This document shows, one piece after another, positions 1,119-21,584 of a stretch of DNA of 23,025 nucleotides. Below the pieces are notes generated by a model. That model had not been told where the DNA came from. It searched no databases and saw only the letters and a list, made by a program, of their open reading frames with translations. A program made the position numbers and the translations under genes. Each line of letters opens with the position of its first letter. The first letter of the stretch is position 1. Source of the stretch: a virus; IMG/VR virus record IMGVR_UViG_3300042894_000404, positions 1-23,025 of that record; one strand, written 5' to 3'.

Positions 1119-1775
1119 TTATTTCAGTCTATTTTCAAACGCTTTTAGCGTGTGCTGAAATGGATTATTATCGATATTCTCAACCAAGTAAAGCATTTTC
1201 GACGCAACTTCACGAATTTCTTTTTGGGCGTGTTCGCTGTTACGAAGCTTTAAGAAGTTGGCGAATGATCGCATATTGAAAGAAATGTCTGCCTGAATCT
1301 GACTATTGTAAAGTTTAAAGAATCGAGCTGATTCCTTAGCACGTTTCCGTCCGATAATCGGTGTCAGTTCTTCAAGTGCCTGATGATACATCTTATTGCT
1401 GAGACAAGAGAAATCTTCAAGACGTTCAGCCCATGTTCGACTTTCATGATCGGAGACAATAACATCACACCAATCTTCTGGAATATAATACTTGTCTTCT
1501 TTGAGTTCTTTATATCGAGCAGACTCGGCATTCATAGAAGAAATGCGATGCTTGATTAAGTGAATATGCGAAGCAATCTCGGTATCAACCAAGAAGTGAA
1601 CCATTCCTTTTTCAAATGGTGTCTCATGACCATCTCTCCATAGCATGTTGATTAATGCTGGAATTCGATTCTTCTTATCTTCACTCAAATCTCTGGACGT
1701 TGAGGTCCATGCTGAACAAGCGATGATTTCATCACTTCCATAATATCCTAATAGTTCTACTTTGTTTTCACTCAT
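1119..1775 (-). CDS. thyX: Flavin-dependent thymidylate synthase ThyX
   Basis: ThyX methylates dUMP to dTMP using methylene-tetrahydrofolate, with FAD and NADPH, and so supplies thymidine nucleotides for phage replication. The 218-aa length is typical. The family motif RHRxxSxNxxSxR is present at residues 75-87 as KHRISSMNAESAR; the first Arg is replaced by Lys. The upstream HETPFE (residues 50-55) matches the conserved HxSPFE-type segment. The start overlaps the gp41 stop by 4 nt (ATGA), implying translational coupling to the helicase. The conservative R-to-K change at the first motif position is the only oddity, and all other motif residues are intact, so I expect an active enzyme. Confidence 0.95.
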   Translation of the reverse strand: MSENKVELLGYYGSDEIIACSAWTSTSRDLSEDKKNRIPALINMLWRDGHETPFEKGMVHFLVDTEIASHIHLIKHRISSMNAESARYKELKEDKYYIPEDWCDVIVSDHESRTWAERLEDFSCLSNKMYHQALEELTPIIGRKRAKESARFFKLYNSQIQADISFNMRSFANFLKLRNSEHAQKEIREVASKMLYLVENIDNNPFQHTLKAFENRLK

Positions 1776-3172: not shown

Positions 3173-3455
3173 TTTTAAATTCGCTTTCTGTAATAATATT
3201 TGCTAACACGTTACCTAGATAGTCCCTAAACTTAGGATCACTCTCAAAAGAAATGTCCAGATTAGTTGGATATTCCTCAATCTTGTAATCGAATGAAAGT
3301 GTAGCACAATCATTCTTAGGATCTTCTTTTAGTTGAACCTTACCATATGTATAGACTAGATTTGACCAATCTCCACTCAATAACTTGATTGAATAGAAAT
3401 CGGATGTCTCTTTCTCTACGAAAATGTAATCTTTTCCCTCAGTTATGTCAAGCAT
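3099..3455 (-). CDS. Small protein in the gene-40 position
   Basis: A 118-aa protein from the ATG at 3455 (MLDITEGKDYIFVEKE). An earlier in-frame start at 3479 is possible but would overlap uvsX more deeply. The chosen ATG overlaps the uvsX-C stop by 8 nt (ATGCTTGA). It sits between uvsX and gp41, where T4 has gene 40, a small head-vertex assembly chaperone of similar size. Assignment is by position and size, and I cannot confirm sequence homology. The protein is beta-rich and soluble with a charged Ser/Glu-rich tail (HHKESNSERGLLS). The tail is encoded in the 74-nt overlap with gp41, so its composition may be constrained by the helicase N-terminus. Confidence 0.65.
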   Translation of the reverse strand: MLDITEGKDYIFVEKETSDFYSIKLLSGDWSNLVYTYGKVQLKEDPKNDCATLSFDYKIEEYPTNLDISFESDPKFRDYLGNVLANIITESEFKIGTDGTESSIDHHKESNSERGLLS

Positions 3456-3999
3456 TTTGTTCGGTGGTTTCGAGTTCAACTACATCTTCAACAACGCTTT
3501 CGGTCAACATCTCGCGTTGACCGATCTGGAATGTGTCTTCAATATACTTTGCGAATTTAGTCTTGGTAAAGATGGTTTCCCAAAAGTCTTTGGTCATGGT
3601 CTGAGCTTCACGAAGATTTCCAGTCAATTCTTCTTTAGTCTCTGGATTGAATGCTGTATACCAACCATTCTTTGGCTTAACGACATAACCACCATTCAAT
3701 GCAACCTGAAGTAATCCAGACCATTTCTGAATACCGCCATTCCAAGAAACACTGATTGGAATCTTTGATTTCTCCTTGACAAATCGAGACTTCTCAACAT
3801 TAATTACGAAATGGTAACCTTGAATTTCGGTTCCGTCTTTATCTTGTTGACGACCAATGATCCAGATATTGTCAGCGGAGTATGTAATACCAGTATTCGA
3901 CACAACCAATCCATTACTCAATACATATTCATGATTACCAGCGACTGTAATATCATAAACCTTCTTCTTACCAACTTTCTTAATCGACTTTAGTTTCAT
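3448..3999 (-). CDS. uvsX: UvsX recombinase C-terminal half fused behind a C-intein
   Basis: The first 35 residues form a C-intein: MKLKSIKKVGKKKVYDITV, block F (VYDITVAGNHEYV, with Asp16 and His23) and block G ending LVVSN, whose terminal Asn35 would cyclise. The penultimate residue is Ser rather than His, as in the Npu DnaE intein (ASN). Residues 36-183 are the UvsX C-extein, beginning TGITYSADNIWIIGRQQ and continuing through GYHFVINVEKSRFVKEKSKIP to KPKNGWY, which aligns readily with T4 UvsX. Thr36 is the +1 nucleophile. The ORF has its own ATG with no strong ribosome-binding site and overlaps by 20 nt the homing-endonuclease remnant in another frame. Splicing with the N-half gives 210 + 148 = 358 residues, close to normal UvsX length. 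Confidence 0.93.
   Translation of the reverse strand: MKLKSIKKVGKKKVYDITVAGNHEYVLSNGLVVSNTGITYSADNIWIIGRQQDKDGTEIQGYHFVINVEKSRFVKEKSKIPISVSWNGGIQKWSGLLQVALNGGYVVKPKNGWYTAFNPETKEELTGNLREAQTMTKDFWETIFTKTKFAKYIEDTFQIGQREMLTESVVEDVVELETTEQNA
3895..3999 (-). mobile_element. C-terminal half of split intein (35 aa)
   Basis: This covers codons 1-35 of the downstream uvsX ORF. It carries intein blocks F and G: the hydrophobic VYDITV strand, NHEYVLSNG, and the terminal SN before Thr. Length and architecture match natural C-inteins such as Npu DnaE and the phage gp41-type split inteins, including a basic N-terminal segment (KLKSIKKVGKKK) that could pair with the acidic N-intein (LEFEDG, EGEPD). Charge pairing is a known assembly feature of split inteins; that it applies here is inference. 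Confidence 0.9.
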
Positions 4000-4303: not shown

Positions 4304-5215
4304 TCAACTGATAATATCGCAATCGGTACCAATAGTAAGCTCTTGCGCTTGAACCCATTGACCATTTACAGCAAATGGATGAGTATCGGAGCATACGACT
4401 TTGTGGCCATCTTCAAACTCAAGTTCAAGGCAATCAGGTTCGCCCTCAAGTAGAGTATCTGGATTCCATGTGTGAGTTACATCTCTAACTCCGTCACGTG
4501 TGATTACAAGATCTCCAACTTCAATCTTATCGATTGCTTTAGAAGAACCATCAGCAAGTTGAATTAAAGTTCCTTCTTCGAAACAACCACCAGAAACAAC
4601 TGCCTTACTGAACATCTCTTGAGTCTGGTAAGTATGGTTAATAGCAAGCAATGGAATGTTCTTCATGGTAAGATACGGAGTCACCATACGGAATAGACCC
4701 TTCAGAGACTTTGCTCGGGTCATATCTGCGACACTCTTTTCATTCAGAGCATCTTCCATTTCTTTCTTCGATGCAAGGTTACCAACAGAATCGATGATCA
4801 TAATAACGTGATCTTTACGATCAATATCATTAAGTTGATTCACGATGTCAAACTTCAGTTCTTCAATATCTGTAATAGGAGTATGAAGAACACGAGTGAT
4901 GTCAATACCAAATGATTCAAAGTAGGACTGTGGTGAGCCAAACTCCGAATCATAGAACATGAGAACAGCATCTGGATATTTCTTCATATACGAAGCTGCC
5001 ATGAGCAGAGCAAATGAAGTCTTAAAGTGCTTCGATGGTCCAGCCAATACTGTGAGACCAGAAGTCATACCACCATCGATTGATCCAGATAGTGCCACGT
5101 TGATCATGGGAACTGGTGTCGAGGTAATATCTTTAGTTGCATAAAAGATACTTTCAGAGAGGACAGCACTTTCTTTGATACGGGAATTCTTTTTTAGTTT
5201 TTCGAGTAATGACAT
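4304..5215 (-). CDS. uvsX: UvsX recombinase N-terminal half fused to an N-intein
   Basis: UvsX is the T4 RecA homologue: it forms filaments on ssDNA and drives strand exchange in recombination-dependent replication. Residues 1-210 are the N-extein, with Walker A GPSKHFKTS (59-67), Walker-B-type IMIIDSVGNLAS (about 138-149) and the L2-adjacent INHTYQTQEMFSKAVVSGG. Residues 211-303 are an N-intein starting at Cys211 (CFEEGTLIQLADG, block A) and containing block-B-like CSDTHPFAV. It ends DIIS-TGA. RecA function needs the rest, which is encoded in a separate downstream ORF. The start codon sits about 20 nt after a TTGACA-N16-TAGAAT promoter and an ACACACACC leader. N-extein codons run 4586-5215. 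Confidence 0.95.
   Translation of the reverse strand: MSLLEKLKKNSRIKESAVLSESIFYATKDITSTPVPMINVALSGSIDGGMTSGLTVLAGPSKHFKTSFALLMAASYMKKYPDAVLMFYDSEFGSPQSYFESFGIDITRVLHTPITDIEELKFDIVNQLNDIDRKDHVIMIIDSVGNLASKKEMEDALNEKSVADMTRAKSLKGLFRMVTPYLTMKNIPLLAINHTYQTQEMFSKAVVSGGCFEEGTLIQLADGSSKAIDKIEVGDLVITRDGVRDVTHTWNPDTLLEGEPDCLELEFEDGHKVVCSDTHPFAVNGQWVQAQELTIGTDCDIIS
4307..4585 (-). mobile_element. N-terminal half of split intein (93 aa)
   Basis: This covers codons 211-303 of the N-terminal uvsX ORF. Block A begins with the nucleophile Cys directly after VVSGG. N2-like EVGDLVITRDG and block B (GHKVVCSDTHPFAVNGQWV) follow, with the His of the TxxH-type motif at residue 279. Length agrees with natural N-inteins. 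The segment is acidic around LLEGEPDCLELEFEDG, complementary to the basic C-intein start. No endonuclease domain lies before the TGA. Confidence 0.9.
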
Positions 5216-5266: not shown

Positions 5267-5512
5267 TTATTCATAATAGTTCTGAATCTCAAGTAGATGC
5301 TCAGTTAGATCTGCAACCTGTTGGTCACAGAAGATAACTTGATCAATATATGGTTTGCCCTTTAGACAAGCCCATGCAAGTTTAATTCGATTTAGCCATG
5401 ATCGATTCTGTGGATCATGAGAGAATAAGGCAATTTCTGTTCCAAAATTACGATCATATTCAACCCAAAGACCATCGGCACTACAATCGCATTTAAAGAA
5501 TTTGCCTTTCAT
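5267..5512 (-). CDS. Conserved-type small phage protein, 81 aa
   Basis: The N-terminus MKGKFFKCDCSADGLWVEYD has a CxC pair followed by a beta-strand pattern seen in short phage proteins of unknown function. A middle segment WLNRIKLAWACLKGKPYIDQV is amphipathic, not clearly transmembrane, and ends in a short helical tail (DLTEHLLEIQNYYE). Two further cysteines (about residues 48 and 62) could complete a metal site, but the spacing is not diagnostic. The start overlaps the stop of the second TAGT glycosyltransferase by 4 nt, so it is the last gene of that operon before the uvsX promoter. No function can be assigned. Confidence 0.75.
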   Translation of the reverse strand: MKGKFFKCDCSADGLWVEYDRNFGTEIALFSHDPQNRSWLNRIKLAWACLKGKPYIDQVIFCDQQVADLTEHLLEIQNYYE

Positions 5513-6288
5513 AATTGTTCCAATATACTATCTAAATTTTTAAGTTTCAGCTCTTGTTTGTATTTTCCCCAAACTCGGCTAGGCTTGATAGTAGTTCTTC
5601 CGTATTTGTTTACGAGTTCAAATACACCAGGCCATTGAGCTTGAAGTCCTCTCATATTATTTGCTCTTCCGTCTCCAACATATTCACTATCTGTACATCC
5701 ACCTTTGAGACTCATCGTCTTTGCTTTTTCTATAAGCAAAGTGTTAAACATAAGTGTGCAATATTTGAGTTCTAATACCTGTAATGCATAATCTGTATCT
5801 TCGACTAAAGCTGGTCTCCACCATATATCTAGCGCATTATTAAATAAGAAGCAGCTTGAGATTTGAACATTATTTGAATAATATTTTTTATAAGAGAATG
5901 CGAATAGATCATATCTCATACCAGCAATACCGATATTAGTATATTTGTCTACCTCTTCTTCAATCTCGTCAAATAATGGCGATGGAGAACATTTGATATT
6001 CTTTCCATCGACACGTCTCTTAAAGTTCTTGATATTATCATCCAGCTGCCAATGATATGACTCACGCCTAGAGATTGAATATTGTTTAATCCAATTTCTG
6101 ACGTAAGCCATGCCCTTGTTATTTTCAGTCATAACAAGAACTTTATCATCGCCATACTTTTCAATATACAATTTAGCATCCTGAGGTTCTACAACAACAC
6201 GGAAATCCATATTGTCTTTAAGTAGGTGTTCAGCAGTTAGGCATGTATCATGTCTACCCTTCGATGGTATATAAATTGTATATTTCAT
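5509..6288 (-). CDS. TET-associated glycosyltransferase-like protein (TAGT, copy 2)
   Basis: A 259-aa GT-A-like protein: IYIPSKGRHDTCLTA at the N-terminus binds the sugar nucleotide, NKGMAYVRNW follows, then YHWQLDDNIKNF (acidic DDN at residues 83-85, the metal-binding DxD equivalent), GIAGMRYD, and VEDTDYALQVL with the EDTD motif. The family was defined by association with TET/JBP dioxygenases in phages, where it is thought to glycosylate hydroxymethylated bases. No TET/JBP gene is visible here, so the acceptor is unknown. It is a diverged paralogue of the gene at 11598-12461, with the same motif order. The ATG overlaps the stop of a 30-aa membrane peptide (ATGA), and its own stop overlaps the next gene. 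Confidence 0.8.
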   Translation of the reverse strand: MKYTIYIPSKGRHDTCLTAEHLLKDNMDFRVVVEPQDAKLYIEKYGDDKVLVMTENNKGMAYVRNWIKQYSISRRESYHWQLDDNIKNFKRRVDGKNIKCSPSPLFDEIEEEVDKYTNIGIAGMRYDLFAFSYKKYYSNNVQISSCFLFNNALDIWWRPALVEDTDYALQVLELKYCTLMFNTLLIEKAKTMSLKGGCTDSEYVGDGRANNMRGLQAQWPGVFELVNKYGRTTIKPSRVWGKYKQELKLKNLDSILEQL

Positions 6289-6377
6289 AGTTTACCTGTA
6301 TACATCAGGAATGTTGCACATAGTATTCCAGTGATTGCTACGAGAGTTGCACAAATAAGCATTATGTATTCAGTCAT
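6285..6377 (-). CDS. 30-aa single-pass membrane peptide
   Basis: The ATG at 6377 reads MTEYIMLICATLVAITGILC and ends LMYTGKL-TGA at 6285. It is almost entirely one hydrophobic helix flanked by Glu at the start and Lys at the end. It fills the gap exactly: it begins in a TAATG junction with the MazG-like stop and ends in an ATGA overlap with the TAGT start. This perfect tiling is the main evidence that it is a real gene. Function is unknown. Confidence 0.65.
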   Translation of the reverse strand: MTEYIMLICATLVAITGILCATFLMYTGKL

Positions 6378-6730
6378 TATGCATCCTTTTTGAATTGACC
6401 ATCTACCATTTTACCAGTGCGTTTGCTGATAACATCATAAGCAGAAGCAAGGCAATCTTCACCAGTAAGACCTAACAAATCGGCAAGGAGAATCAACGTG
6501 ACAAATGAATCACCAATACCATCTTCGATTGCTTCCATTGTGCCAGAACCACTCTGATAAGCAATGATTGCATCTTGTGTTTCTTTGATTTCCTCAAGCA
6601 CTTTATCCCATTGAGCTGAGATTGTTCCTTTACCTTGAGGTCCGATGATACCTTTCTCTAATCCCCATTGACGAACATTGTTGAATAGATCGTGGGCATT
6701 ATTACTATTTTGTTTAATGTTTACTTGCAT
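6377..6730 (-). CDS. MazG-like nucleotide pyrophosphohydrolase
   Basis: A 117-aa all-alpha NTP-PPase. The metal-binding signature appears as EEIKET (about residues 47-52) followed by EDGIGDSFVTLILLA (about 68-82), matching the EExxE...ExxD arrangement of MazG/dUTPase-like enzymes. The C-terminal KRTGKMVDGQFKK is characteristic of phage MazG-like proteins. The enzyme would hydrolyse nucleoside triphosphates, possibly altering dNTP pools or, as proposed for cyanophages, (p)ppGpp-linked host physiology; the substrate is not deducible here. It follows the phosphoesterase gene at a short gap and joins the 30-aa peptide by TAATG. The leader ATAGAACACAGATAAACAC is CA-rich, with no clear Shine-Dalgarno. 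Confidence 0.85.
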   Translation of the reverse strand: MQVNIKQNSNNAHDLFNNVRQWGLEKGIIGPQGKGTISAQWDKVLEEIKETQDAIIAYQSGSGTMEAIEDGIGDSFVTLILLADLLGLTGEDCLASAYDVISKRTGKMVDGQFKKDA

Positions 6731-6738
6731 ATTAGTGT

Positions 6739-7422
6739 TTATCTGTGTTCTATAATTTCGAGTTCATCTAAGATTCTTGCAGAACATCCGTTATATCTAA
6801 GTGACACGCTCTGGTGAAAGTGACCTGCATAACTATATAGCGGCTTTGCTACTGAGAATAAAATGTTATGATCGTCACGCTCATTGAGACAATCCCTCCA
6901 GAGAAATTCATCTTTTTCGCACCAGTTAATAATACCAGCTTTATCGAATGGACCGAGCCAGCTAGGTGCTGAATGAGTAATCAGGACATCACATTTTTGA
7001 ATAAGATCATCCTTCAAATCGAATCTCTCATTCTTCCAATAGGACTTCCCTTCAATTCTGATCTTACGATCAATTGAAATTGCTCCACCAACGAATAAGA
7101 ATCTCTGATCATTAATATCAGTGCAATAATAATCGGGAAGAAGCTTGAAATGACTTAGTGAGATATTACTGAATTCGTCATTGAAGAATTTAGGATCATC
7201 ATGGTTTCCACGAATAGACATGAATTCAATATCACGGGCCTCTAGGAAACCATTGAACAATTCGCATATGTATCTTTCACGAGATTCATCGTATTGAAAT
7301 CCGATACCTAAATCTCCAACACATATGAGATAACAATCATGTATATCAAGTTGTTTGATTCTCTCTTTGAGATTAGCGAATTTTCCATGAATGTCTCCGA
7401 TAATGTAAATCGGTTTTTTCAT
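6739..7422 (-). CDS. Calcineurin-like metallophosphoesterase (PP-like)
   Basis: A 227-aa protein with the full metallophosphoesterase motif series: GDIHG (residues 9-13), VGDLGIGF (about 36-43), SIRGNHDDP (GNHD block), LITHSAPSWLG, and GHFHQS near the C-terminus. These residues bind the dimetal centre and act on phosphoesters. It most resembles short Ser/Thr-phosphatase or nucleotidase-type phage enzymes; the substrate is unknown. It lies directly after a second, larger phosphoesterase gene (1-nt gap), so the two may act on related substrates. All catalytic residues look present. The start codon follows TTCGCATAAT with no ribosome-binding site. Confidence 0.88.
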   Translation of the reverse strand: MKKPIYIIGDIHGKFANLKERIKQLDIHDCYLICVGDLGIGFQYDESRERYICELFNGFLEARDIEFMSIRGNHDDPKFFNDEFSNISLSHFKLLPDYYCTDINDQRFLFVGGAISIDRKIRIEGKSYWKNERFDLKDDLIQKCDVLITHSAPSWLGPFDKAGIINWCEKDEFLWRDCLNERDDHNILFSVAKPLYSYAGHFHQSVSLRYNGCSARILDELEIIEHR

Positions 7423-7423
7423 A

Positions 7424-8473
7424 TTATGCGAATAGAGTTTTGCCTAGAGTACAGATAGATGATTTACCATTAGAGATTGATACGAGTTCAACGCCAAATG
7501 TATTGTCACTTAATGAGACAATGGCGAAACCATTCTGCCAGTTAGGTGCGGATGCATAAACGGGATTCAAGTCGCACATACATCCGATTTCATATCCCAT
7601 GTGCTGAACATCGGTTTTACCAGCGATGGCTGGACGACGGATTGCTGTTGCACCGAGACGATGAACATGGCCGATCATAACGGATGCGCTGAACTTCTGA
7701 ATCATACCAAGAGCAGACGCGCCTGCATTAGAACGAACAACATCGCCGTGCATGACTAACAAACCATTAAGATCTACATAATCGACAGTTTCAATGATGC
7801 CAGCAAAGTCTCCCATGAATACCTTCTCATAAGTGCAGTTATCCCAGAATTCAGAAAGACAAGCTAGTGAACCAAGCTTCTCCGACAGATACCGTCTCCA
7901 ACGTCCCTGAATACCTTGGGACGAATGGTTTGCATGAGTTTCATAGATCTTAGCTCCACCAGAGATAGAGACAAGAGTTTGTAGAAATTTCTGGTATGCA
8001 ATGCGCTCTTCATTAAGATTCCAGCTAGTAAGAATATCTGCTGGATACTTTGAGATGGCTAACATATCACATGTATCTCCATTAAGAATAATTGTGGATG
8101 GCTTCAGTTCAATAATTGTCTGGAATAGAATATCAACAGACTTCTTACACTCCGTTGGGAAGTGCATATCTGAACAAACAATGGCAAAGTTGCTAAGTTC
8201 AGATTTTACCTTTAGAATCTCTGGCAACGGAAAGACTAATGGAACAAGATTTTCCATAAACTCTTCTGGTGATACCTGAGTGTCTTTCTTCGTAGGTTTA
8301 ATGCGTCGAAGGTTATCATTAACATATCCAATCGGAATGTTTTCATTTGCATTAAATGCTCCTACCCAACCCTGAGCTGTTGATTTTGCTACACCATAAT
8401 CAGTAAAGATTTGGGTATAGGTAGCACCATTAAGTCGGGCATCGATTACTTTCCGTTTGATTTCGTTTAACAT
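7424..8473 (-). CDS. HTH plus metallophosphoesterase protein
   Basis: The 349-aa protein has two parts. Residues 1-50 (MLNEIKRKVIDARLNGATYTQ and GVAKSTAQGWV) form a helix-turn-helix resembling those of transposases and terminase small subunits. From about residue 95 there is a metallophosphoesterase domain with SDMHFP, LNGDTCDM, ETHANHSSQG, VMHGDVVRS and GHVHRLGA. This supplies the expected metal ligands, although the first motif is DMH rather than DxHG. Phage homologues with HTH-phosphoesterase fusions suggest a DNA-targeted nuclease or phosphatase, but activity is not deducible. It starts 1 nt after the preceding stop and is followed by another phosphoesterase, making a tandem pair. Confidence 0.85.
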   Translation of the reverse strand: MLNEIKRKVIDARLNGATYTQIFTDYGVAKSTAQGWVGAFNANENIPIGYVNDNLRRIKPTKKDTQVSPEEFMENLVPLVFPLPEILKVKSELSNFAIVCSDMHFPTECKKSVDILFQTIIELKPSTIILNGDTCDMLAISKYPADILTSWNLNEERIAYQKFLQTLVSISGGAKIYETHANHSSQGIQGRWRRYLSEKLGSLACLSEFWDNCTYEKVFMGDFAGIIETVDYVDLNGLLVMHGDVVRSNAGASALGMIQKFSASVMIGHVHRLGATAIRRPAIAGKTDVQHMGYEIGCMCDLNPVYASAPNWQNGFAIVSLSDNTFGVELVSISNGKSSICTLGKTLFA

Positions 8474-8474
8474 G

Positions 8475-8669
8475 TTATTTTAATAATTCCTTTACTTCAT
8501 TTATCATAAAATTAACGTCTTCTAAAGTGGCAGGAGAATTGAGTTTTTCCAGAGCAAGTATTGCTTCAAGTCTTGTATCATAGCTTGAGTGGACAGATAA
8601 ACTGTTCCTGTGCTCAATCTGAATCTGATAGGAATTATCAGCGAAGTTGTGGTGGATCAGATACTTCAT
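8475..8669 (-). CDS. Small hypothetical protein, 64 aa
   Basis: I do not recognise a named family. MKYLIHHNFADNSYQIQIEH suggests a short beta-hairpin, followed by a helical half (TRLEAILALEKLNS and LEDVNFMINEVKELLK). No cysteines, membrane segments or nucleic-acid motifs are visible. It is placed 1 nt before the phosphoesterase gene and directly after a weak terminator-like hairpin, so it may begin a transcript or be read through from the promoter at 8980. Confidence 0.65.
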   Translation of the reverse strand: MKYLIHHNFADNSYQIQIEHRNSLSVHSSYDTRLEAILALEKLNSPATLEDVNFMINEVKELLK

Positions 8670-8672
8670 ATT

Positions 8673-8709
8673 AAAAGGCGAGCAGTTTAGTGTCTTGCTC
8701 AGGACTTTT
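8673..8709 (-). terminator. Weak terminator-like hairpin
   Basis: The minus strand reads AAAAG-TCCT-GAGCA, an 11-nt loop, then TGCTC-GC-CTTTT followed by AAT. Two 5-bp stems are separated by an internal loop, and the second ends in a T-run. It lies between the 69-aa and 64-aa genes and would attenuate rather than fully stop transcription. Confidence 0.35.
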
Positions 8710-8715
8710 AAATTA

Positions 8716-8925
8716 TTAGGCGTACATCAGGAACGTGCGATCACGAATATCAGCAGCGCATTGATTGGCAACTCGAATGATTATGTCTTCGTCAACATTA
8801 AATTCGATTAATATCGCAATAGTCTTGATCACATCATGAATCAACTCAGTGGAAGGAATTGCGCTAAGGTCCATACGGGTAATAGCTTTGAATTCAGTCG
8901 CAAGGTAATCAATCGGTGTTTTCAT
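8716..8925 (-). CDS. Small hypothetical helical protein, 69 aa
   Basis: The sequence (MKTPIDYLATEFKAITRMDL, then ELIHDVIKTIAILIEF and IIRVANQCAADIRDRTF) predicts an all-helical soluble protein. I do not recognise the family. It is the first gene after the promoter at 8980-8953 and has a leader of about 25 nt that contains no clear Shine-Dalgarno. The downstream hairpin may separate it from the phosphoesterase operon. Confidence 0.65.
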   Translation of the reverse strand: MKTPIDYLATEFKAITRMDLSAIPSTELIHDVIKTIAILIEFNVDEDIIIRVANQCAADIRDRTFLMYA

Positions 8926-8952
8926 AATGTAGTAGCAGTTAGCTATGAAACC

Positions 8953-8980
8953 AAATTAGCACGTTAGGCTTAAATGTCGA
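8953..8980 (-). promoter_or_regulatory. Promoter for the 69-aa gene and downstream operon
   Basis: -35 TCGACA (8980-8975), a 16-nt spacer and -10 TAATTT (8958-8953). The upstream block AAAATAGTTGAAAATAATTC is nearly the same as that before the promoter at 12978 and has the same alignment to the -35 as the uvsX promoter. The hexamers are individually weak; the conserved upstream block is the stronger evidence. Confidence 0.55.
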
Positions 8981-8999
8981 GAATTATTTTCAACTATTT

Positions 9000-9122
9000 T
9001 CAATCGCGGTCGAAATCTGTAAAAATAGACAGTAAAGCGAATAAGAACAAACAGATAGACACTACTGCAACAGCAGCGATTTTAGGGTCATGGTCAACAA
9101 TTTGATTCCAGAGATTTACCAT
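9000..9122 (-). CDS. 40-aa single-pass membrane peptide
   Basis: The ATG at 9122 reads MVNLWNQIVDHDPKIAAVAV and continues through SICLFLFALLSIF to TDFDRD-TGA. One hydrophobic helix (about residues 15-34) is followed by an acidic tail. The start overlaps the stop of the 56-aa ORF by 7 nt, and the gene closes the DUF1003 cassette just before the next promoter. It is too short to assign. Its position and composition suggest a membrane accessory protein. Confidence 0.6.
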   Translation of the reverse strand: MVNLWNQIVDHDPKIAAVAVVSICLFLFALLSIFTDFDRD

Positions 9123-9286
9123 AATTTTAAGTTTCTTCCAGCACTAGCAATAATGAAAAAGCACGTAACGATATGAACGAACCACCAAAAAGTTCGTATT
9201 ACTGCTGCAATATCAGACTCACGATCATGATCGGAAATCTTTTGTCCCATGGATTTAGCCCATATTTTCCAGATTTTTTTCGTCAT
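9116..9286 (-). CDS. 56-aa membrane protein of T4-like phages
   Basis: It reads MTKKIWKIWAKSMGQKISDH, then DRESDIAAVIRTFWWFVHIV with TCFFIIASAGRNLKLW. There is a basic amphipathic start and one membrane helix (about residues 32-50). The IWK.WAKS.G.K..D.D...D..A.IRT pattern is familiar from small proteins of marine T4-like phages, but I know no function for it. The start overlaps the DUF1003 stop (ATGA), and it overlaps the next small ORF, so the three form a compact membrane-protein cassette. Confidence 0.7.
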   Translation of the reverse strand: MTKKIWKIWAKSMGQKISDHDRESDIAAVIRTFWWFVHIVTCFFIIASAGRNLKLW

Positions 9287-9786
9287 TTACTCTCGGTGAC
9301 CTTAGCATGAACCTCTTGGGTGAGAATTTCGATTCTCTGGTTCATCTCTCTAATCGCCTTCATAACACTTGAGTTTTGCTTTGTCAACTTCATGATTGCT
9401 GCTGTTTGCTCACTGATGAGTGCTTGTCTATTTGCGCTTTCGATAGCCAAAGAATCTCTGTGTTGTGCATCGGCAGCGGCGTGTGCTTTGTCTCGGTCAG
9501 CTTGTCTAGTCTGTGCAAGTAGAATTAGTGGTGCTGCATATGCAGCTTGGGTTGAGAAGGCGAGATTAAGAAGAATGAATGGATAAAGGTCAAAGTTAAA
9601 AATTCCAAAAACATTCAAGAGAATCCAAACTGTAACAAAGATGGTTTGTGCGATAATGAAGATTGGTGTGCCGAAGAATCTTGCAAACGCTTCTGCCTTC
9701 AGTGCAAACCAATCATTACCAAAGACAGGTGTTAAATGAAGATGCTCTTCAAGAAATCTTTTATGGTCTTTATTTTCGGTTGTCAT
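9283..9786 (-). CDS. DUF1003 inner-membrane protein
   Basis: The chosen start is the ATG at 9786 (MTTENKDHKRFLEEHL), which follows a GATAAATACACGA element; a longer version from 9813 would run back into a hairpin region. The 167-aa protein has two membrane helices (about residues 40-60 and 68-92) and the DUF1003 hallmark DLYPFILLNLAFSTQAAYAA then PLILLAQTRQADRDK. The C-terminal 70 residues (SANRQALISEQTAAIMKLTK and IREMNQRIEILTQEVH) are coiled-coil-like and cytoplasmic. The family is widespread in bacteria with unknown function. In a phage it could act on the host membrane, for example in superinfection exclusion, but this is conjecture. Confidence 0.85.
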   Translation of the reverse strand: MTTENKDHKRFLEEHLHLTPVFGNDWFALKAEAFARFFGTPIFIIAQTIFVTVWILLNVFGIFNFDLYPFILLNLAFSTQAAYAAPLILLAQTRQADRDKAHAAADAQHRDSLAIESANRQALISEQTAAIMKLTKQNSSVMKAIREMNQRIEILTQEVHAKVTESK

Positions 9787-9814
9787 TCGTGTATTTATCA
9801 ACATGAGTAACAAC

Positions 9815-9849
9815 CATCTTCCAGATCGAGCATTAAGATCTGGAAGATG
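9815..9849. repeat. Perfect 13-bp inverted repeat / hairpin
   Basis: CATCTTCCAGATC and GATCTGGAAGATG pair perfectly around a 9-nt loop between the cREC gene and DUF1003. Neither strand has a proper T-run after the stem. It may still act as a terminator or RNA-processing or stability element at the operon boundary, or as an operator. Confidence 0.7.
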
Positions 9850-9859
9850 AATTTAATCA

Positions 9860-10285
9860 TTACTTAATTTCGTCTAGGACTTTTTGAATATTAGCGGCAC
9901 CATAAGAATTCGCCGAATGAACATATGTCTTAATTGGTGGCTTACCAGCTTCAATCCATTTCTTTACAAGATATTCTGCACACGATTTCCCAGTCTTGTT
10001 TTTGAGATTTCCATATTCGATCACACCCTTAGTGAGTGCAGTTACCTTAAAGTAATATTCGATATGCTCTTGGTGAAGATCATGGTCAAAGGATATAATC
10101 GAAGGTAATCCGTTCTTTTCGATATAGCGAACAAACGAATCGTATGTACGGACAATTTGCCATTGGTTATTAGGAATGCCAGTAGAATCAATCAATGATT
10201 CATGAGTATCGCTCAGATATGCATCTTTGGGATAACGAAGATCATCCAAGAATAAGTTATAAGGATCGTGTGTGTCTGTTTTCAT
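9860..10285 (-). CDS. cREC (cyclic-phosphate processing receiver) domain protein
   Basis: A 141-aa single-domain protein. NLFLDDLRYP (residues 10-19) carries the paired Asp of receiver-like folds, followed by WQIVRTYDSFVRYI, LPSIISFDHDLH (second acidic motif), KTGKSCAEYLVKKW and YVHSANSYGAANI. This motif order matches the cREC family, a receiver-like domain predicted in comparative studies to process cyclic phosphates such as 2',3'-cyclic ends in RNA-repair or conflict contexts. It lacks a conventional phosphorelay partner. It follows the thioredoxin-like gene with a few nt spacing and is the last gene before the hairpin at 9815. Family assignment is from memory of its motifs. Confidence 0.75.
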   Translation of the reverse strand: MKTDTHDPYNLFLDDLRYPKDAYLSDTHESLIDSTGIPNNQWQIVRTYDSFVRYIEKNGLPSIISFDHDLHQEHIEYYFKVTALTKGVIEYGNLKNKTGKSCAEYLVKKWIEAGKPPIKTYVHSANSYGAANIQKVLDEIK

Positions 10286-10287
10286 GT

Positions 10288-10527
10288 TTATTGTTTGATT
10301 CGTTTAATGATTTCGTCGGTACCAGTAATAATCTCGGTAACATCTTCATTATTCATTACAAGTAAGCGAGGAACTCCCTTAATCTGATGCTTTTGGAAGA
10401 AATCTGCAGTTTGATCAGCATCCATGTAGGTTACTTTATCATTAAGACCTTCTGCGATAAGTCTAGATTTAAGAACGCGGCAGGGGCCGCACCACGATGC
10501 TGTTGCTAGTATTAGTGTTTGTGTCAT
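10288..10527 (-). CDS. Thioredoxin/glutaredoxin-like protein
   Basis: A 79-aa mini-thioredoxin fold: LILATASWCGPCRVLKSRL has the classic WCGPC redox site at residues 12-16, followed by VTYMDAD and the cis-Pro segment IKGVPRLLVM. It is shorter than E. coli thioredoxin (about 108 aa), lacking the first helix, and is close to T4 NrdC in size. It would reduce disulfides, for example in ribonucleotide reductase, although no reductase gene lies in this window. The start forms a TAATG junction with the preceding gene. Confidence 0.88.
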   Translation of the reverse strand: MTQTLILATASWCGPCRVLKSRLIAEGLNDKVTYMDADQTADFFQKHQIKGVPRLLVMNNEDVTEIITGTDEIIKRIKQ

Positions 10528-10763
10528 TATAGTAATTCTGCTGAGACTCTTTTGTAAAATTCTAATTTACTGATTAATGTTTCTGGCGTAATGCCTTCGG
10601 AATCATAACAATAATTATCAGATATGTCAAGACTTAAATTAAGTTCTTTTAACCATTCTGAGGAGGTCTTCTTTCGGAAAATAGTATCCCAGTTTGACCT
10701 TCCATCAGAAGATAAGATTCGTGATTGAATTGAATCTCCAGTAATATCATTCTTCGCTGCCAT
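10527..10763 (-). CDS. Small hypothetical protein, 78 aa
   Basis: I do not recognise it. MAAKNDITGDSIQSRILSSD and WDTIFRKKTSSEWLKELNLSL indicate a soluble, mixed-charge protein with C-terminal helices (PETLISKLEFYKRVSAELL). The start lies inside the end of the preceding ORF (17-nt overlap), and its stop joins the thioredoxin-like start, consistent with tight operon packing. No ligand or catalytic motif is seen. Confidence 0.65.
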   Translation of the reverse strand: MAAKNDITGDSIQSRILSSDGRSNWDTIFRKKTSSEWLKELNLSLDISDNYCYDSEGITPETLISKLEFYKRVSAELL

Positions 10764-10995
10764 AAACGTATTCTCTTAAATAGTCGAGATATGATTCGGA
10801 TCGTCCTCCGGAGTTGTAAACATAATCAAAGATGAATGATACAAGGGTCGGATCTTCTTCTTCCTCCAATTCAAGTTGACCTATTAAATGATCGAATTTT
10901 CGTTCTGACTCAACACTGTTTTGAGTCTCGATGATGCGAAGATTCTCAATTAGATTCTTTTGCTCTTCAGTTAGTTTTTTCATAGTATCTGTCAT
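10747..10995 (-). CDS. Small hypothetical acidic helical protein
   Basis: The start is taken as the ATG at 10995 (MTDTMKKLTEEQKNLIENLR); the next ATG at 10983 is equally possible, and a longer start at 11016 would overlap the upstream gene by 50 nt. The product is helical and acidic (LIGQLELEEEEDPTL), ending in a Tyr-rich segment (SYLDYLREYVYGSEE). No family is recognised. The overlaps on both sides suggest co-translation with its neighbours. Confidence 0.6.
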   Translation of the reverse strand: MTDTMKKLTEEQKNLIENLRIIETQNSVESERKFDHLIGQLELEEEEDPTLVSFIFDYVYNSGGRSESYLDYLREYVYGSEE

Positions 10996-11611
10996 GTAAC
11001 TTACGGTATTCATCAATCAAAGACGTAATTTCAGTATTGTCATTCGCAAGTTTATATATCGTATCGATTAACTTTTCATGTGGAGAAGGGTAATCACGCC
11101 TATTTTTAATGCAGTATCGATTAAACTCTTTACGCTTTTCTTCATATCGAATAGTGGATTCATTCACTTCATCATCTGTGAATTTAATCGGTGGCTCATC
11201 TTTAATTAATTCAATGTCTCCATGTAATTTTCCCTTGACGAATATGGCTCGATATTCAATCCAACCATACTGGAATCGTGAAGGACCACCAAAAGATGAT
11301 TCATACTCTGGATGCTTATATGAATCATAAAACGAAATGTCTCCAGTAAATGAACATTCATCTAAAGTTTCGCTAACAACTTCAGTGTGTCCTTTTAGAA
11401 TAGAATCATCTTCTGGCGTTGATACCCATTCAAGTTCTTGAATTCGATGATAAAGTTGGCCTTTGTCATTGATGATATACAAATCCATGCTTTGCGAATC
11501 TGTATCTTTAGTTTGAAAGTAAATTGCATCCACTGAACCCCAAGTCTCAATAAGACCTGCGGGAACTGAATGTAGTGGCATTTCGCATTTAATATAGTCA
11601 AACATCCCCAT
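10967..11611 (-). CDS. Conserved-type phage protein beginning MGMFDYI
   Basis: A 214-aa protein starting MGMFDYIKCEMPL, an N-terminus shared by a broad group of uncharacterised phage proteins (MFDYI.C..PLP). It is beta-rich in the first 130 residues (WGSVDAIYFQTKDTDSQ, LYIINDKGQLYHR, YGWIEYRAIFVKGKLHGDIEL) with a helical C-terminal tail. A GAGG Shine-Dalgarno-like sequence sits about 9 nt upstream, one of the few clear ones in this window. The start overlaps the end of the TAGT gene by 14 nt, so it belongs to the same operon. Function is unknown. Confidence 0.7.
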   Translation of the reverse strand: MGMFDYIKCEMPLHSVPAGLIETWGSVDAIYFQTKDTDSQSMDLYIINDKGQLYHRIQELEWVSTPEDDSILKGHTEVVSETLDECSFTGDISFYDSYKHPEYESSFGGPSRFQYGWIEYRAIFVKGKLHGDIELIKDEPPIKFTDDEVNESTIRYEEKRKEFNRYCIKNRRDYPSPHEKLIDTIYKLANDNTEITSLIDEYRKLHDRYYEKTN

Positions 11612-12461
11612 CTTCGTATACCTCGTTAAATTTTGATTCCTTCGTTACTAATACCATGCCGTGATTGTTAACACCAGGTTTGATGTCATAATCGGGTTTG
11701 CGTATCAGCTTGTTCTTTTTGAATTTGCTGTAATCAACATGATGCTGCCAGCGGTTCCACTTCCATGTGATCGAAGCAATGTCTGGATGTTGCTCAACTA
11801 ATGATTGAGCCATTAGCAGACGACCATCGCCTTGATAAAGAACATCTGTATTACCGCCACCCATTCGCATTGTCGCCATCTTACCAGCAAGGAAGATGTT
11901 AAACAGAATTGTGCAATCACCGTCTCTCAATACTCGGATCGACAAATCGGTGTCTTCATTGTATCTTCCGCGCCAGCGATGTTTGCAGGTATTTTCAATT
12001 AGAATGCAAGAGTAAACACGAGCATTTAGATAATATGGAGGTGCCTTCGCATCACTAGGGCAAAAGAAATCATAATTGAATCCAGCGATTGGAACATTCT
12101 CATATCGATCAACGAACATCTCCGCAACTCTAAAGATAGTTCCAGAGTCAACACGAAGTTTTCGATTGTTATTCAATCGCTCAAAGTATCGAATGTTATC
12201 ATCGAGGATCCAATGGCGTTTCGCTCCGATAGAAATCGAATGATCCCAAACCCAGTTTCGAGCTGGAATAGAACCTTGACCTAGATTACTGAACGGCAAT
12301 ACAAGGATCTTTTTAGGATCGATTACTGCCGCATAAGCATCATATTCTTGCGGTTCAATTACGATGTGATAAGGAATGTTGCGCAACTCAAGAGCCTTAC
12401 TGGTATATCTTGAATCAGCCCGACCCTTAGAAATGATATAGACGGGATACTCAGGATTCAT
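11598..12461 (-). CDS. TET-associated glycosyltransferase-like protein (TAGT, copy 1)
   Basis: The ATG at 12461 (MNPEYPVYIISKGRADSRYT) is chosen because it overlaps the stop of the 88-aa gene by 11 nt and begins the conserved domain; the upstream in-frame extension is not family-like. The 287-aa protein shows SKGR at the nucleotide-sugar end, GQGSIPARNWVWD, RHWILDDNIRYF (acidic DDN at 87-89), IAGFNYDFFC, RWRGRYNEDTDLSIRVLRDG with the EDTD motif, and MRMGGGNTDVLYQGDGR. TAGT enzymes are predicted to add sugars to modified bases in phage DNA. A second, diverged copy lies at 5509-6288. The acceptor base and sugar are unknown. Confidence 0.85.
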   Translation of the reverse strand: MNPEYPVYIISKGRADSRYTSKALELRNIPYHIVIEPQEYDAYAAVIDPKKILVLPFSNLGQGSIPARNWVWDHSISIGAKRHWILDDNIRYFERLNNNRKLRVDSGTIFRVAEMFVDRYENVPIAGFNYDFFCPSDAKAPPYYLNARVYSCILIENTCKHRWRGRYNEDTDLSIRVLRDGDCTILFNIFLAGKMATMRMGGGNTDVLYQGDGRLLMAQSLVEQHPDIASITWKWNRWQHHVDYSKFKKNKLIRKPDYDIKPGVNNHGMVLVTKESKFNEVYEDGDV

Positions 12462-12717
12462 CGGTATAGAATGTATTAATACGAACATCCCGCACAAGCT
12501 GAGGATGCCAAATAGCTTTAGTTTTTGGAGTAATTGATTGTCCAAGTAATTTGGCGAAATCTTGAACCTCTTCTTCGGTATTAAACCGAACATTAATCAT
12601 GCGGTAAGCTTCTTTTGCTTTTTGTTTAAAGTCTGGCATTCCAATCCATTCTTCTTCCCAAGCTTCATCTGCGCCTAGTTTGCCTTCGCTACCTTCGTAA
12701 AATCCTTCTAAATTCAT
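12451..12717 (-). CDS. 88-aa protein upstream of TAGT
   Basis: It begins MNLEGFYEGSEGKLGADEAW and carries a compact C-terminal domain, MINVRFNTEEEVQDFAKLLG followed by KTKAIWHPQL. The helix plus KTKxIWxP ending recurs in small phage proteins that I associate loosely with DNA-modification neighbourhoods, though no activity is known to me. The first 25 residues are acidic. The start overlaps the stop of a 46-aa ORF (ATGA) and the stop overlaps the TAGT start, suggesting the pair is co-translated and perhaps interacts. Confidence 0.75.
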   Translation of the reverse strand: MNLEGFYEGSEGKLGADEAWEEEWIGMPDFKQKAKEAYRMINVRFNTEEEVQDFAKLLGQSITPKTKAIWHPQLVRDVRINTFYTDES

Positions 12718-13262: not shown

Positions 13263-14210
13263 TTACTTATACGATGATTTAAATGCATACTGAATTGCTC
13301 TGCTTGCTTCCACTTCCAATGGTCGGTTCTTATACCAACCGCCAGTATCATTATCAATACTATGACAAAGTTCTGAAATCTCTTTTGGAGTAATAGGATA
13401 ACCTTTCTTAATCGCGGATGAAGCAATACTCAACATGATGGCATACATCTTTGAATACCACCCAGTCTCTTGAATCGATTGATATTCAGCCACAAGGTTT
13501 CGATTAATGAAAGGGCAATCGGTATATGAATTCCAACTGAAACCACGATTGGTCAACTTCTCTCTTTGCATTGAAATAAACTTCTGTTGAAATGCTGATG
13601 GAAGTTTATCAAGTAAAGTATTACCAGAAGTTGAATCAGCAAAGGTGTGCTTCTTCATCAATTCATCAGGATCTAAAAATGGAGCATCTTTATGAGAGAA
13701 AATGAACTGATATGAATCTGGATATTTCGCTGGAACATAATACATCCGAGAAAGATCCTTTGTCTGTGGATCACCTAGAGAGTTGAACTGTTTATTCAGA
13801 GCATACCAGAAATGCTTAATCTTATCTGCTGGAATAGTCTTTGTGAGTGGAAAGATGATTCTGAATTTAGGATGCTCTTCAGTCGAAGAAGCCGAGGAAT
13901 AACAAATGAATCGATTTGATTTAAAAGTATTGACTGCTTCCTCGAATGTCGAATCATAGTCATCGACATCCATCGCACACCATCCACCCCATTCGATCAC
14001 GTTCACATTTCGACGGAGATCGTTATTCTTGAAGACTGCTGGAGAAATCAATGGTGAACCTTGCTTGTGTTCTCCTCTCTTTGGTTTATAGCCTTGCTGA
14101 GTGCTTAACGAATAAAACAAATCTTCCATCTTATCCCAAGAGTCAAACTCCATAGAACGATGCGTTTTGTTATCGAAAATCGATTGAAAAATAGTGAGTG
14201 AGTATTTCAT
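13263..14210 (-). CDS. AEP-type primase (PrimPol-like) protein
   Basis: A 315-aa protein resembling the catalytic half of archaeo-eukaryotic primases found in phage and plasmid replication proteins. Motif I is GWCAMDVDDYD (paired acidic residues, about residues 77-87), motif II is CYSSASSTEEHPKFRIIFPL (S-x-H-like, with the HP.FRI..PL string typical of the family), and motif III is DLSRMYYVPAKYP. After KDAPFLDPDELM, a helical C-terminal region (GYPITPKEISELCHSIDN with GGWYKNRPLEVEASRAI) resembles PriCT-type domains. No helicase is fused. It starts just after the gp43 stop, so it is co-expressed with the polymerase. It may prime replication in place of, or in addition to, a gp61-type primase, which is not seen here. 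Confidence 0.7.
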   Translation of the reverse strand: MKYSLTIFQSIFDNKTHRSMEFDSWDKMEDLFYSLSTQQGYKPKRGEHKQGSPLISPAVFKNNDLRRNVNVIEWGGWCAMDVDDYDSTFEEAVNTFKSNRFICYSSASSTEEHPKFRIIFPLTKTIPADKIKHFWYALNKQFNSLGDPQTKDLSRMYYVPAKYPDSYQFIFSHKDAPFLDPDELMKKHTFADSTSGNTLLDKLPSAFQQKFISMQREKLTNRGFSWNSYTDCPFINRNLVAEYQSIQETGWYSKMYAIMLSIASSAIKKGYPITPKEISELCHSIDNDTGGWYKNRPLEVEASRAIQYAFKSSYK

Positions 14211-14211
14211 A

Positions 14212-16752
14212 TTAACAGAAAAAGTCTTCTAGTGATGCTCGCGGTTCGACACTCCAGTTGATCGCATCTAAGATCAGGTTGAGAGGATCAATGAATGTCT
14301 TCTCAAACTGTTTATCATAGTCTATGTACTTATGTAAACCTAATTCTTTTGGAAGTTCACCAGAGAAGGAAATAACATTCTCGTTGATCGAGTTTGGAAC
14401 CTTCAGATAGCAGAACCAAATACGATCACCAGATTGAATTTTATGGATCCTTTTATCAAGTCCCGCGTCTTTTAGCGCACGATTAAATACAAGCGATCCT
14501 CTAACGTGAATAGGAGTTCCCTTAGAGTATATAGTTGATTTGCTTGTCCACTTTTTAAGATTTGAAACACTTCTAGGAAATGAGATCTTCTCTGGAGATA
14601 ATGTGTTGAAGTAGATTCTGAAGTCATTGATTGCTTTCTGAGTCTTAGTCTCATCTCCAGTCATGATTACTTTGAATAGATTCTTAAATGCATCCCGACA
14701 AACTGCTGGTGTGGAACTTTTGATTGCTTCAATACCAACCATCTTGATCTTCGGTTCTGCGTATTGAACACCCTCGTTGTTGTGAACATTGAGAATATAC
14801 CGCTTCTTGGCTGTCCAGATTGCACGATCTGCAATAGCTTCCCGCTTCATTACCATCGTGTTCTTATACGCATTTGTAATCTTAGCAAGTTCGGCGAATG
14901 ACTTTGCAAGTAGAGGTTCGACAGCTTTCGATCCGAATTCATCTAGGAATGCGACTGGATTCACTGGATTGAACTTCTTAATAACATCTTCAACCGAGAC
15001 ATAAAGTGAGTCAGTATCGATTGCAATGATTCGATCCTTTACTGTATCTTCTTTAATGAAGTTTGAAATCCAATCGTTCAGATGTTTTTCACCCCAACGG
15101 ATAACAAGCTGTCCTGTATTGGTAATAGCAGAAGCAATATCAATATCGTAATGTCTAAAGTGAAGATTGGCCATCGCGCCATAAAGACTATTCATCAGTG
15201 TCTTAATTGCCATCTGCTCCGTCTCAAACTTAGCAATCGATGATTCGATAACGCTTCTTTCTTTAATGTTCTTCTTATCGATTGTTTCAAGTTTTGCTTT
15301 TGCATCAAGCATTGATCTTTTGATTACAACTCGCTTGTTATAGTATTCCTCAATGATCGATGGAATAACACCCATCTTATCTCTACGGAAACAAACTCCA
15401 TTCGCTGCAGTAGCCAGATTTGGTTCTGGTGAAATGTTCTGCTTATTCTCAAGGATCGTATCTTGATTAACATTATGCACTTGCATATGTTTTACGATTG
15501 TCTCTGGACTCATGTTATACTGAATAATCAGAGATGGATACAGCGAATTAATGTCGAATGACATAATCCAATCATACATACCAGGATCTGGATCCTTGAC
15601 ATATCCGCCTGGATATTCTTCTTTGCTGTGATGATTACCTTGAGGTACCGCGATGTGATCTTTGGCTAATCGTCGGAAGATAATACAATCCCAAATCGAT
15701 GTAGTCCCTAGAGTGTCTCCGTAGTTCACACCACCAAGATATGCCATGCTCAATACAAGATCGATTAGAGCAATCTCATTTTCCATTCTTTCGATTAGAG
15801 CGGTATCTTGAATGTTGTAATCGATGAACTTCTGGAAGTCATTCTCATAAAGCTTTGCGAGTGTTCCGTGTTCGCCATAGTCAACTTTACGTTCACCCAG
15901 AACCACGTTGGCGATGTGATCGAGTTTATATGACTCTTGTTTTCCGTACTTGTATGTACCGAACTTTTGAAACAACTCCAGATAATCCAGAGACTGAATT
16001 CCCATGATGTCGTAATATGTTGATTCTCTTCCTTGAATCGTAACATTTCGTTGTTCGATAGAACCCCATGGAGAAAGTTGCTTTGTCTTATCTGCTCCCA
16101 ATACTCTGGACAATCGATTAACGATATATGGAATATCAAACATTCGAGTATTCCATCCAGTGATAATATCTGGGGTATTTGCAAGGTCACTCCACCAGAT
16201 GATGAAGTCATTTAACATCTCAGTCTCCGTCTCAAATTCACGATAATCTACATAGATTCCTTCTGGTGATCTACTTGTATCATATTCCTTTAATCCCCAG
16301 ACACGATAGACTGTATCCTTACTGGATTTAAGTGCGATAGTCAGAATGCGATTATTCGCACTACTAGGCTCAGCCCAACCATCTGATGTGTATTCAGTCT
16401 CAATATCGATTGAACAAATATCGATCAATCGTTTATCGTATTTGATTTCATCTGGAAACTCTGCCTGAATAAAAGCTGGAATATGTCTATCATTACCATA
16501 GATCTTAAAAGAGTCAACTTCTTCATAAGTCTTCATAAATTGGCGACAATCTCCCATGGATTCAAACCGCATCGGTTCGACTGGAATTCCATCCAGCGAT
16601 TTCCACTTCGTGTCTTTAGTCTTTGATTCAAGATACATCACTGGACGAAACTTGAATTTCTCATAAACCTTGCGACCGTGTTCGTCATACCCGCGATAAA
16701 GCAGGTTGTTCATTTTTCTGTCAATGCATGTGTAAAAGCCGCTGTTCAACAT
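14212..16752 (-). CDS. gp43: Family B DNA polymerase, T4 gp43
   Basis: The replicative polymerase, 846 aa (T4: 898). The 3'-5' exonuclease carries SIDIETEY (residues about 115-122), ITGWNTRMFDIPYI and YNIQDTALIERM. The polymerase domain shows motif A SFDINSLYPSLIIQYN, motif B QMAIKTLMNSLYGAMAN and motif C IIAIDTDSLYVS. All catalytic carboxylates are present, and I see no intein or intron. The clamp-binding C-terminus ends PRASLEDFFC, where the LEDFF resembles the C-terminal clamp-interaction peptide of T4 gp43. The start is next to a promoter whose -10 ends only about 6 nt upstream, implying an almost leaderless message. The stop is 1 nt from the primase-like gene. Confidence 0.97.
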   Translation of the reverse strand: MLNSGFYTCIDRKMNNLLYRGYDEHGRKVYEKFKFRPVMYLESKTKDTKWKSLDGIPVEPMRFESMGDCRQFMKTYEEVDSFKIYGNDRHIPAFIQAEFPDEIKYDKRLIDICSIDIETEYTSDGWAEPSSANNRILTIALKSSKDTVYRVWGLKEYDTSRSPEGIYVDYREFETETEMLNDFIIWWSDLANTPDIITGWNTRMFDIPYIVNRLSRVLGADKTKQLSPWGSIEQRNVTIQGRESTYYDIMGIQSLDYLELFQKFGTYKYGKQESYKLDHIANVVLGERKVDYGEHGTLAKLYENDFQKFIDYNIQDTALIERMENEIALIDLVLSMAYLGGVNYGDTLGTTSIWDCIIFRRLAKDHIAVPQGNHHSKEEYPGGYVKDPDPGMYDWIMSFDINSLYPSLIIQYNMSPETIVKHMQVHNVNQDTILENKQNISPEPNLATAANGVCFRRDKMGVIPSIIEEYYNKRVVIKRSMLDAKAKLETIDKKNIKERSVIESSIAKFETEQMAIKTLMNSLYGAMANLHFRHYDIDIASAITNTGQLVIRWGEKHLNDWISNFIKEDTVKDRIIAIDTDSLYVSVEDVIKKFNPVNPVAFLDEFGSKAVEPLLAKSFAELAKITNAYKNTMVMKREAIADRAIWTAKKRYILNVHNNEGVQYAEPKIKMVGIEAIKSSTPAVCRDAFKNLFKVIMTGDETKTQKAINDFRIYFNTLSPEKISFPRSVSNLKKWTSKSTIYSKGTPIHVRGSLVFNRALKDAGLDKRIHKIQSGDRIWFCYLKVPNSINENVISFSGELPKELGLHKYIDYDKQFEKTFIDPLNLILDAINWSVEPRASLEDFFC

Positions 16753-21579: not shown

Positions 21580-21584
21580 AATAG

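Follow-up and report, generated by a model that had tools for sequence, protein, structure and literature searches.

The 23,025 nucleotides of IMG/VR record IMGVR_UViG_3300042894_000404, referred to here as the window and amounting to the whole of that record, are a fragment of a T4-like phage whose DNA polymerase shares 45-48% identity with Kyanoviridae and cyanophage polymerases. The window encodes two members of the TET-associated glycosyltransferase (TAGT) family, designated GT1 and GT2, which very probably glycosylate the phage's own DNA. The reading preferred here, to which a probability of roughly 0.5 is given, is that GT1 acts first and that GT2 extends its product; it is favoured because GT2-class genes show a one-sided dependence on GT1-class genes, because the two are fused in some phages and because the ggt gene of phage T6 offers a precedent. 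A first-pass annotation of the window had proposed either two sugars or the sequential addition of a disaccharide; the second of these is favoured, yet unproven, and the first has become the less favoured.

Both genes lie on the minus strand at the positions given in that annotation (Table 1), and its assignment of them to the TAGT family was borne out. GT1 matches the Pfam model PF20691 with 145.2 bits (E 3.3e-42) and GT2 with 131.6 bits (E 4.7e-38), against a cut-off of 27.5 bits and in each case over model positions 1-204 of 205; both also match phrog_842. The two proteins are 34% identical over 256 aligned residues and retrieve each other at about 143-145 bits, so that their likeness cannot be put down to chance, and both carry the motifs SKGR, (A/V)RNW, LDDN, IAG and EDTD in one shared order, as had been noted. 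D87, D88 and N89 together with E169 and D170 are nearly invariant in an alignment of 56 GT1-class sequences, as are D83, D84, E163 and D164 among 35 of the GT2 class, from which it follows that both classes retain the acidic residues required by a GT-A enzyme. The conserved C-terminal residues differ by class (R237, H240 and V242 in GT1; W219, P220 and W240 in GT2); net charge does not discriminate between the classes. There is a longer GT1 open reading frame (ORF), extending to 12593, but a near relative (L004) begins at the identical MNPEYP. AlphaFold2 gave confident models of both proteins, with a predicted local distance difference test (pLDDT) of 90.9 for GT1 and 92.6 for GT2. The best structural match in the PDB was in both cases GalNAc-T2 (6nqt), with Z 14.9, a root-mean-square deviation (rmsd) of 4.3 and 222 aligned residues for GT1, and Z 15.4, rmsd 3.8 and 221 aligned residues for GT2. 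Further fold matches were to the cellulose synthase BcsA (both models) and to SpsA (GT1 only), and a search of PDB sequences yielded no credible match and no TAGT structure. Both proteins thus have a predicted GT-A fold and conserve the acidic motifs for metal binding and catalysis, and the fold and the ED motif suggest an inverting, beta-forming mechanism. When compared with the near relatives L003 and L004 both genes are under strong purifying selection (omega 0.08 for GT2 and 0.04 for GT1) and are therefore being maintained. The idea that GT2 arose from GT1 by a recent duplication, or is a decayed copy of it, was rejected on account of the 34% identity, the separate clades described below and the omega of 0.08.

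In T6 the gene order is 43-imm-42-ggt-uvsX-40-41, gene 42 encoding the dCMP hydroxymethylase and ggt the TAGT of that phage. In the window it runs from 43 through a primase, ORFs of 142 and 88 residues, GT1, several small genes, two metallophosphoesterases, MazG, GT2 and an 81-residue ORF to uvsX, and then through a 126-residue ORF to 41 and ThyX. The interval between gp43 and uvsX, which is the T-even site of gene 42 and of bgt or ggt, thus holds both TAGTs, and GT2 occupies the ggt position just upstream of uvsX, from which it is separated by the 81-residue ORF. TAGTs lie between polymerase and uvsX in most of the other T4-like TAGT contigs that hold both of those genes, and on grounds of location a role for GT1 and GT2 in DNA modification is well supported. 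For a division of the pair into two operons, as first annotated, no support was found: the intervening genes all share a strand, and sites resembling promoters or terminators are no commoner there than in shuffled sequence. The Ggt of T6 and T2 (beta-glucosyl-HMC alpha-glucosyltransferase, HMC being hydroxymethylcytosine) has PF20691 and the slot upstream of uvsX in common with GT2, and it has been stated or proposed to extend an already glucosylated cytosine (PMC13216743, PMC13390438). The T6 protein is very distant in sequence, with 35.8-39.4 bits to PF20691, and T6 combines a single TAGT with an alpha-glucosyltransferase and gene 42. The window holds a pair of TAGTs, and the other two genes were found neither there nor in near-complete relatives. 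In T6 (MH550421, 22359-22970) the TAGT frame runs upstream of the annotated ggt through an in-frame TAG, and Ggt as annotated is without the usual N-terminal strand.

The two genes of the window represent two classes. A tree of 150 representatives places 41 tips in a GT2 clade (support 0.96) and 104 in a GT1 clade (support 0.99). The pair recurs in many environmental phages. Pairing was counted there in dereplicated locus groups, the partner gene being sought within 5.5 kb: starting from the GT2 class, a GT1-class gene was nearby in 26/29 informative groups, but starting from the GT1 class a GT2-class gene was nearby in only 3/16 (Fisher p = 3e-6). The genes of an adjacent pair always share a strand and frequently overlap, and in four further locus groups (L129, L139, L132/L133 and L150/L151) a GT1-like domain and a GT2-type one make up a single protein of 558-601 residues, so that with fusions included the GT2 class is accompanied by the GT1 class in 30 of 33 informative groups (26 adjacent and 4 fused). 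The divergence of the two members is correlated in paired copies (r 0.57, permutation p 5e-4), and on the GT1 tree the pairing state requires at least 14 changes, compared with a mean of 24 for shuffled labels. One-sided dependence, correlated divergence and fusion together form the pattern expected of an enzyme that needs the product of another.

GT1 has in addition a small partner, the ORF of 88 residues that precedes it. Relatives of this ORF adjoin TAGTs or are fused with them in 92 of the 95 GT1 locus groups, and in Aeromonas phages Aeh1 (Aeh1p093), 65 and phiAS5, whose TAGT is of the GT1 class, the partner forms the N-terminus of the TAGT protein itself. The window copy has no match to a Pfam family, but longer forms (L159, L098 and L156) carry a ParB_N domain (PF02195), to which the domain of about 90 residues lies C-terminal. 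Its core reads ..VRFrnEEDleeFAkliGQkit.KTKsIWyP.., and the partner may serve to recruit the transferase to DNA.

On the sequential reading GT1 and its ParB-related partner would place a first sugar on a base, or on a pre-modified base, after DNA synthesis, and GT2 would add a second sugar to that product, much as T6 Ggt turns glucosyl-HMC into gentiobiosyl-HMC. The probable purpose would be to shield the DNA from restriction, from CRISPR and from modification-specific nucleases or glycosylases. DNA as the substrate, the order of the steps and the function are what we infer. Several observations weigh against this reading. The pair in the window is not adjacent, GT1 and GT2 being 5.3 kb apart, and three GT2 groups (L114, L121 and L123) have no GT1 within 5.5 kb. 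That T6 Ggt scores better with a GT2-class profile (27.5 bits) than with a GT1-class profile (14.2 bits) speaks for the reading, but the match is weak and distant. The TAGT of Nonlabens phage P12024L falls in the GT2 clade and is the sole TAGT match in that genome by tblastn; the GT2 clade is therefore not bound to a second step and presumably can act first. No enzyme able to make the first acceptor hydroxyl was found by family searches, and functional pairings of other kinds could also yield co-occurrence and fusion.

The P12024L gene bears on a different reading, in which the two enzymes act in parallel on different acceptors in DNA, whether these are unlike bases or a single kind of base served by different donors, to give two separate modified nucleosides and no disaccharide. 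The presence there of a GT2-clade TAGT next to a TET oxygenase, with GT1 absent, would agree with this, as would the clear separation of the classes and their differing C-terminal residues. The rarity of GT2 without GT1, when GT1 is often alone, is however not predicted by parallel action, nor are the fusions, though neither is forbidden, and we regard it as somewhat unlikely. It is a good deal more improbable that the acceptor is not DNA at all but a protein or other phage or host molecule, as for many GT-A enzymes. The closest solved folds are indeed of protein- and polysaccharide-glycosylating enzymes, the terminase large subunit neighbours the TAGT in many contigs, and two near-complete relatives have no detected base hydroxylase, hydroxymethylase or C5-methyltransferase. 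Set against this are the T-even DNA-modification slot beside replication genes, the DNA glucosylation with which the T6 and T2 members are credited (PMC13216743), the TET and methyltransferase neighbours in P12024L, and the ParB_N-type partner, which suggests DNA.

The source of the acceptor base has to be considered separately. A profile search of the window confirmed the initial observation that it holds neither a TET/JBP oxygenase (Tet_JBP, PF12851) nor a base hydroxymethylase (thymidylate-synthase family, PF00303), and found no C5-methyltransferase and no T4-type glucosyltransferase. Most of the records compared are fragments, so that absences carry little weight outside the complete isolates and two near-complete relatives that share the island, G015 (198,785 bp, 24/25 T4 core genes) and G055 (177,535 bp, 23/25), and divergent enzymes can escape family searches. 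When the search for TET/JBP and hydroxymethylase genes was extended to G015 and G055, neither PF00303 nor PF12851 was found, though divergent oxygenases could be missed. C5-methyltransferases and oxygenases of the 2OG-FeII_Oxy_3 family were considered as the missing step and rejected, neither being present in G015 or G055. The alpha- and beta-glucosyltransferases (PF11440 and PF09198) were found neither in the window, itself a fragment, nor in G015 and G055, nor in a further seven phages with TAGTs; the lack of such an enzyme to place the first sugar has also been counted in support of the sequential model. In positive controls PF00303 recovered T6 gp42 (57.5 bits), PF12851 the P12024L oxygenase, and PF11440 and PF09198 the T4 and T6 enzymes.

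It might still be that a T-even-like pathway, with a hydroxymethylase or TET enzyme on another contig, is encoded elsewhere in the genome and that the pair glycosylates a 5-hydroxymethylpyrimidine, a reading partly independent of the others. The window is only a 23-kb fragment, and rough alignments show unusual thymidylate-synthase homologs in some GT1-class isolates: in Kuja and phage 65 the region around the active site is divergent, and Tenacibaculum phage PTm1 has a second, divergent homolog (L205, 123000-124100) with Asp at the dCMP-type position. The results for G015 and G055, obtained with a model that recognises T6 gp42, speak against it, as do the thymidylate synthases of the GT1-class isolates Aeh1, phiAS5 and henriette, which in a rough alignment keep the ordinary Asn; such a pathway is considered rather unlikely. 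The second PTm1 homolog is a candidate dCMP hydroxymethylase or 5-hydroxy-dCMP synthase in a phage that also has a GT1-class TAGT. Also unlikely, and a bolder proposal, is that GT1-class TAGTs and their partner glycosylate a base without the known hydroxymethylating or TET steps, the GT2 class extending the product to a disaccharide; such a route may attach the sugar straight to a canonical base or may use an unrecognised hydroxylase family.

Other phages show parts of the same arrangement. P12024L has a TET/JBP-TAGT-methyltransferase operon (gp26-gp28) in which the TAGT is of the same clade as GT2, but there a single TAGT goes with a Tet_JBP oxygenase, for which the window and its T4-like relatives show no match. 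Vibrio phage Kuja (HWC83_gp032 and gp033) resembles the window in having two TAGT genes, there adjacent, but both are of the GT1 class, and it has a divergent thymidylate-synthase-family gene. Aeh1, 65 and phiAS5 resemble the window in that searches found in them neither Tet_JBP nor a T4-type glucosyltransferase, but unlike the window they have no GT2-class gene; an Aeh1 glucosyltransferase has been listed as presumed DNA-modifying, base unknown (PMC8056088). For the RB69-type arabinosylation of 5-hydroxycytosine two transferases have been hypothesised to act in sequence, and RB69 uses a thymidylate-synthase-family 5-hydroxy-dCMP synthase (PMC13390438). The likeness to GT1 and GT2 lies in the sequence of action, RB69 having no PF20691 match.

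The first-pass annotation had also taken ThyX and a DUF5664 dNTP hydrolase as a hint of nucleotide-pool adjustment. Both genes are real (Table 1) but the hint is weak, since ThyX scores as an ordinary ThyX (NCBIfam thyX equivalog 106.1, cut-off 87.9), and the notion that it is a disguised hydroxymethylase was dropped on the same ground and for want of any supporting sign. The more relevant pool enzyme is the MazG-like protein beside GT2; in relatives MazG-like genes adjoin GT1. Genes for a UDP-glucose-dehydrogenase-like protein and an NDP-sugar epimerase/dehydratase are present in both G055 and G015, all within the gp43-uvsX island except for the G015 dehydrogenase, which lies elsewhere. They would agree with a uronic or pentose sugar, but this clue to the sugar was set aside, as the window lacks these genes and phage C48C1 has both in its gp43-uvsX island, where tblastn found no TAGT. 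A GTDB scan for GT2-class homologs in host genomes gave pattern matches only, with no relative and no clue to the host.

Table 1. Features of the window and of related contigs (positions refer to the window unless a contig is named)
Feature	Position	Strand	Basis and remarks
Family B DNA polymerase, T4 gp43 like	14212..16752	-	Upstream border of island; polymerase identities (see text)
Primase-like protein within island	13263..14210	-	phrog_9765 DNA primase, 190.9 bits
Conserved GT1 partner of ~90 residues (88 residues)	12451..12717	-	Overlaps GT1 start by 11 bp
GT1, GT1-class TAGT, 287 residues	11598..12461	-	PF20691, fold model, GT1 clade; proposed first (base-proximal) transferase
MazG-like nucleotide pyrophosphohydrolase, directly upstream of GT2	6377..6730	-	phrog_715, 76.4 bits; under Pfam MazG cut-off
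GT2, GT2-class TAGT, 259 residues	5509..6288	-	PF20691, fold model, GT2 clade, T6 ggt position; proposed second-sugar transferase
81-residue ORF	5267..5512	-	No family match (Pfam, PHROG); overlaps GT2 end by 4 bp
UvsX N-terminal part and N-intein	4304..5215	-	Downstream border of island; PF00154 RecA; Hint families from residue ~203 on
C-intein and UvsX C-terminal part	3448..3999	-	PF21134 T4_UVSX_C, 45.4 bits; Intein_splicing C-terminal part
gp41-like DnaB helicase	1772..3172	-	PF03796, 63 bits
ThyX flavin-dependent thymidylate synthase	1119..1775	-	PF02511, 114 bits
dATP/dGTP diphosphohydrolase N-terminal-type protein (DUF5664 of first-pass annotation)	21265..21606	-	PF18909 (dGTP_diPhyd_N), 107.2 bits
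Epimerase/dehydratase and UDP-glucose-dehydrogenase-like genes	L175 9942-11852 (G055); L181 10612-11568, L180 1016-1819 (G015)		
Two-domain TAGT-TAGT fusions	L129 9020-10753; L139 2444-4117; L132 4284-6050; L150 8972-10774		

The island of the window also encodes a cREC_REC receiver-type protein (9860-10285, 67.6 bits) and a DUF1003 protein (9283-9813), both on the minus strand. UvsX (3448-5215, minus strand) is specified by two ORFs whose products a probable split, trans-splicing intein would join, the N-intein closing the N-terminal part at 4304 and the C-intein opening the C-terminal part at 3999; the roughly 300 bp between them, when read past the stop, resemble the remnant of a zinc-finger/NUMOD-type homing endonuclease. 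Further split inteins are possible in G015, where two ORFs (52861-53793, L179; 71874-72899, L180) have C-intein-like starts, one of which apparently precedes part of a ribonucleotide reductase. In 39 TAGT locus groups, e.g. L147 (5703-7037), a terminase large subunit gene is close by, at a median of 504 bp, and these terminase-adjacent TAGTs occur in contigs showing no T4-like replication island. The terminase large subunit ORF of L046 (6858-9269) is split by an intein (Pfam Intein_splicing, 61 bits).

TAGTs, and a TAGT that adds a second sugar, are already known, and a 2026 survey found 288 of 753 phage genomes to have TAGTs but no T4-type glucosyltransferase and called these potential novel transferases (PMC13216743). 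The literature searched, to which neither Iyer et al. 2013, cited for predicting such enzymes, nor Burke et al. 2021 belongs, contained no description of two TAGT classes of which one depends on the other, of GT1-GT2 fusions or of the small partner. The two classes, the one-sided dependence, the fusions and the near-constant partner make for a concrete model, which can be tested in the cultured phages Aeh1, phiAS5 and 65, with the GT1 class only, and Kuja, with two GT1-class copies. If it is true that those genomes have glycosylated bases without a known hydroxylase, there would be a missing step in phage DNA chemistry. It is DNA modifications of this sort that decide whether a phage withstands restriction, CRISPR and DNA-glycosylase defences, and a GT1 route without the known steps would, if true, be a further way into DNA glycosylation, and one common among environmental T4-like phages.

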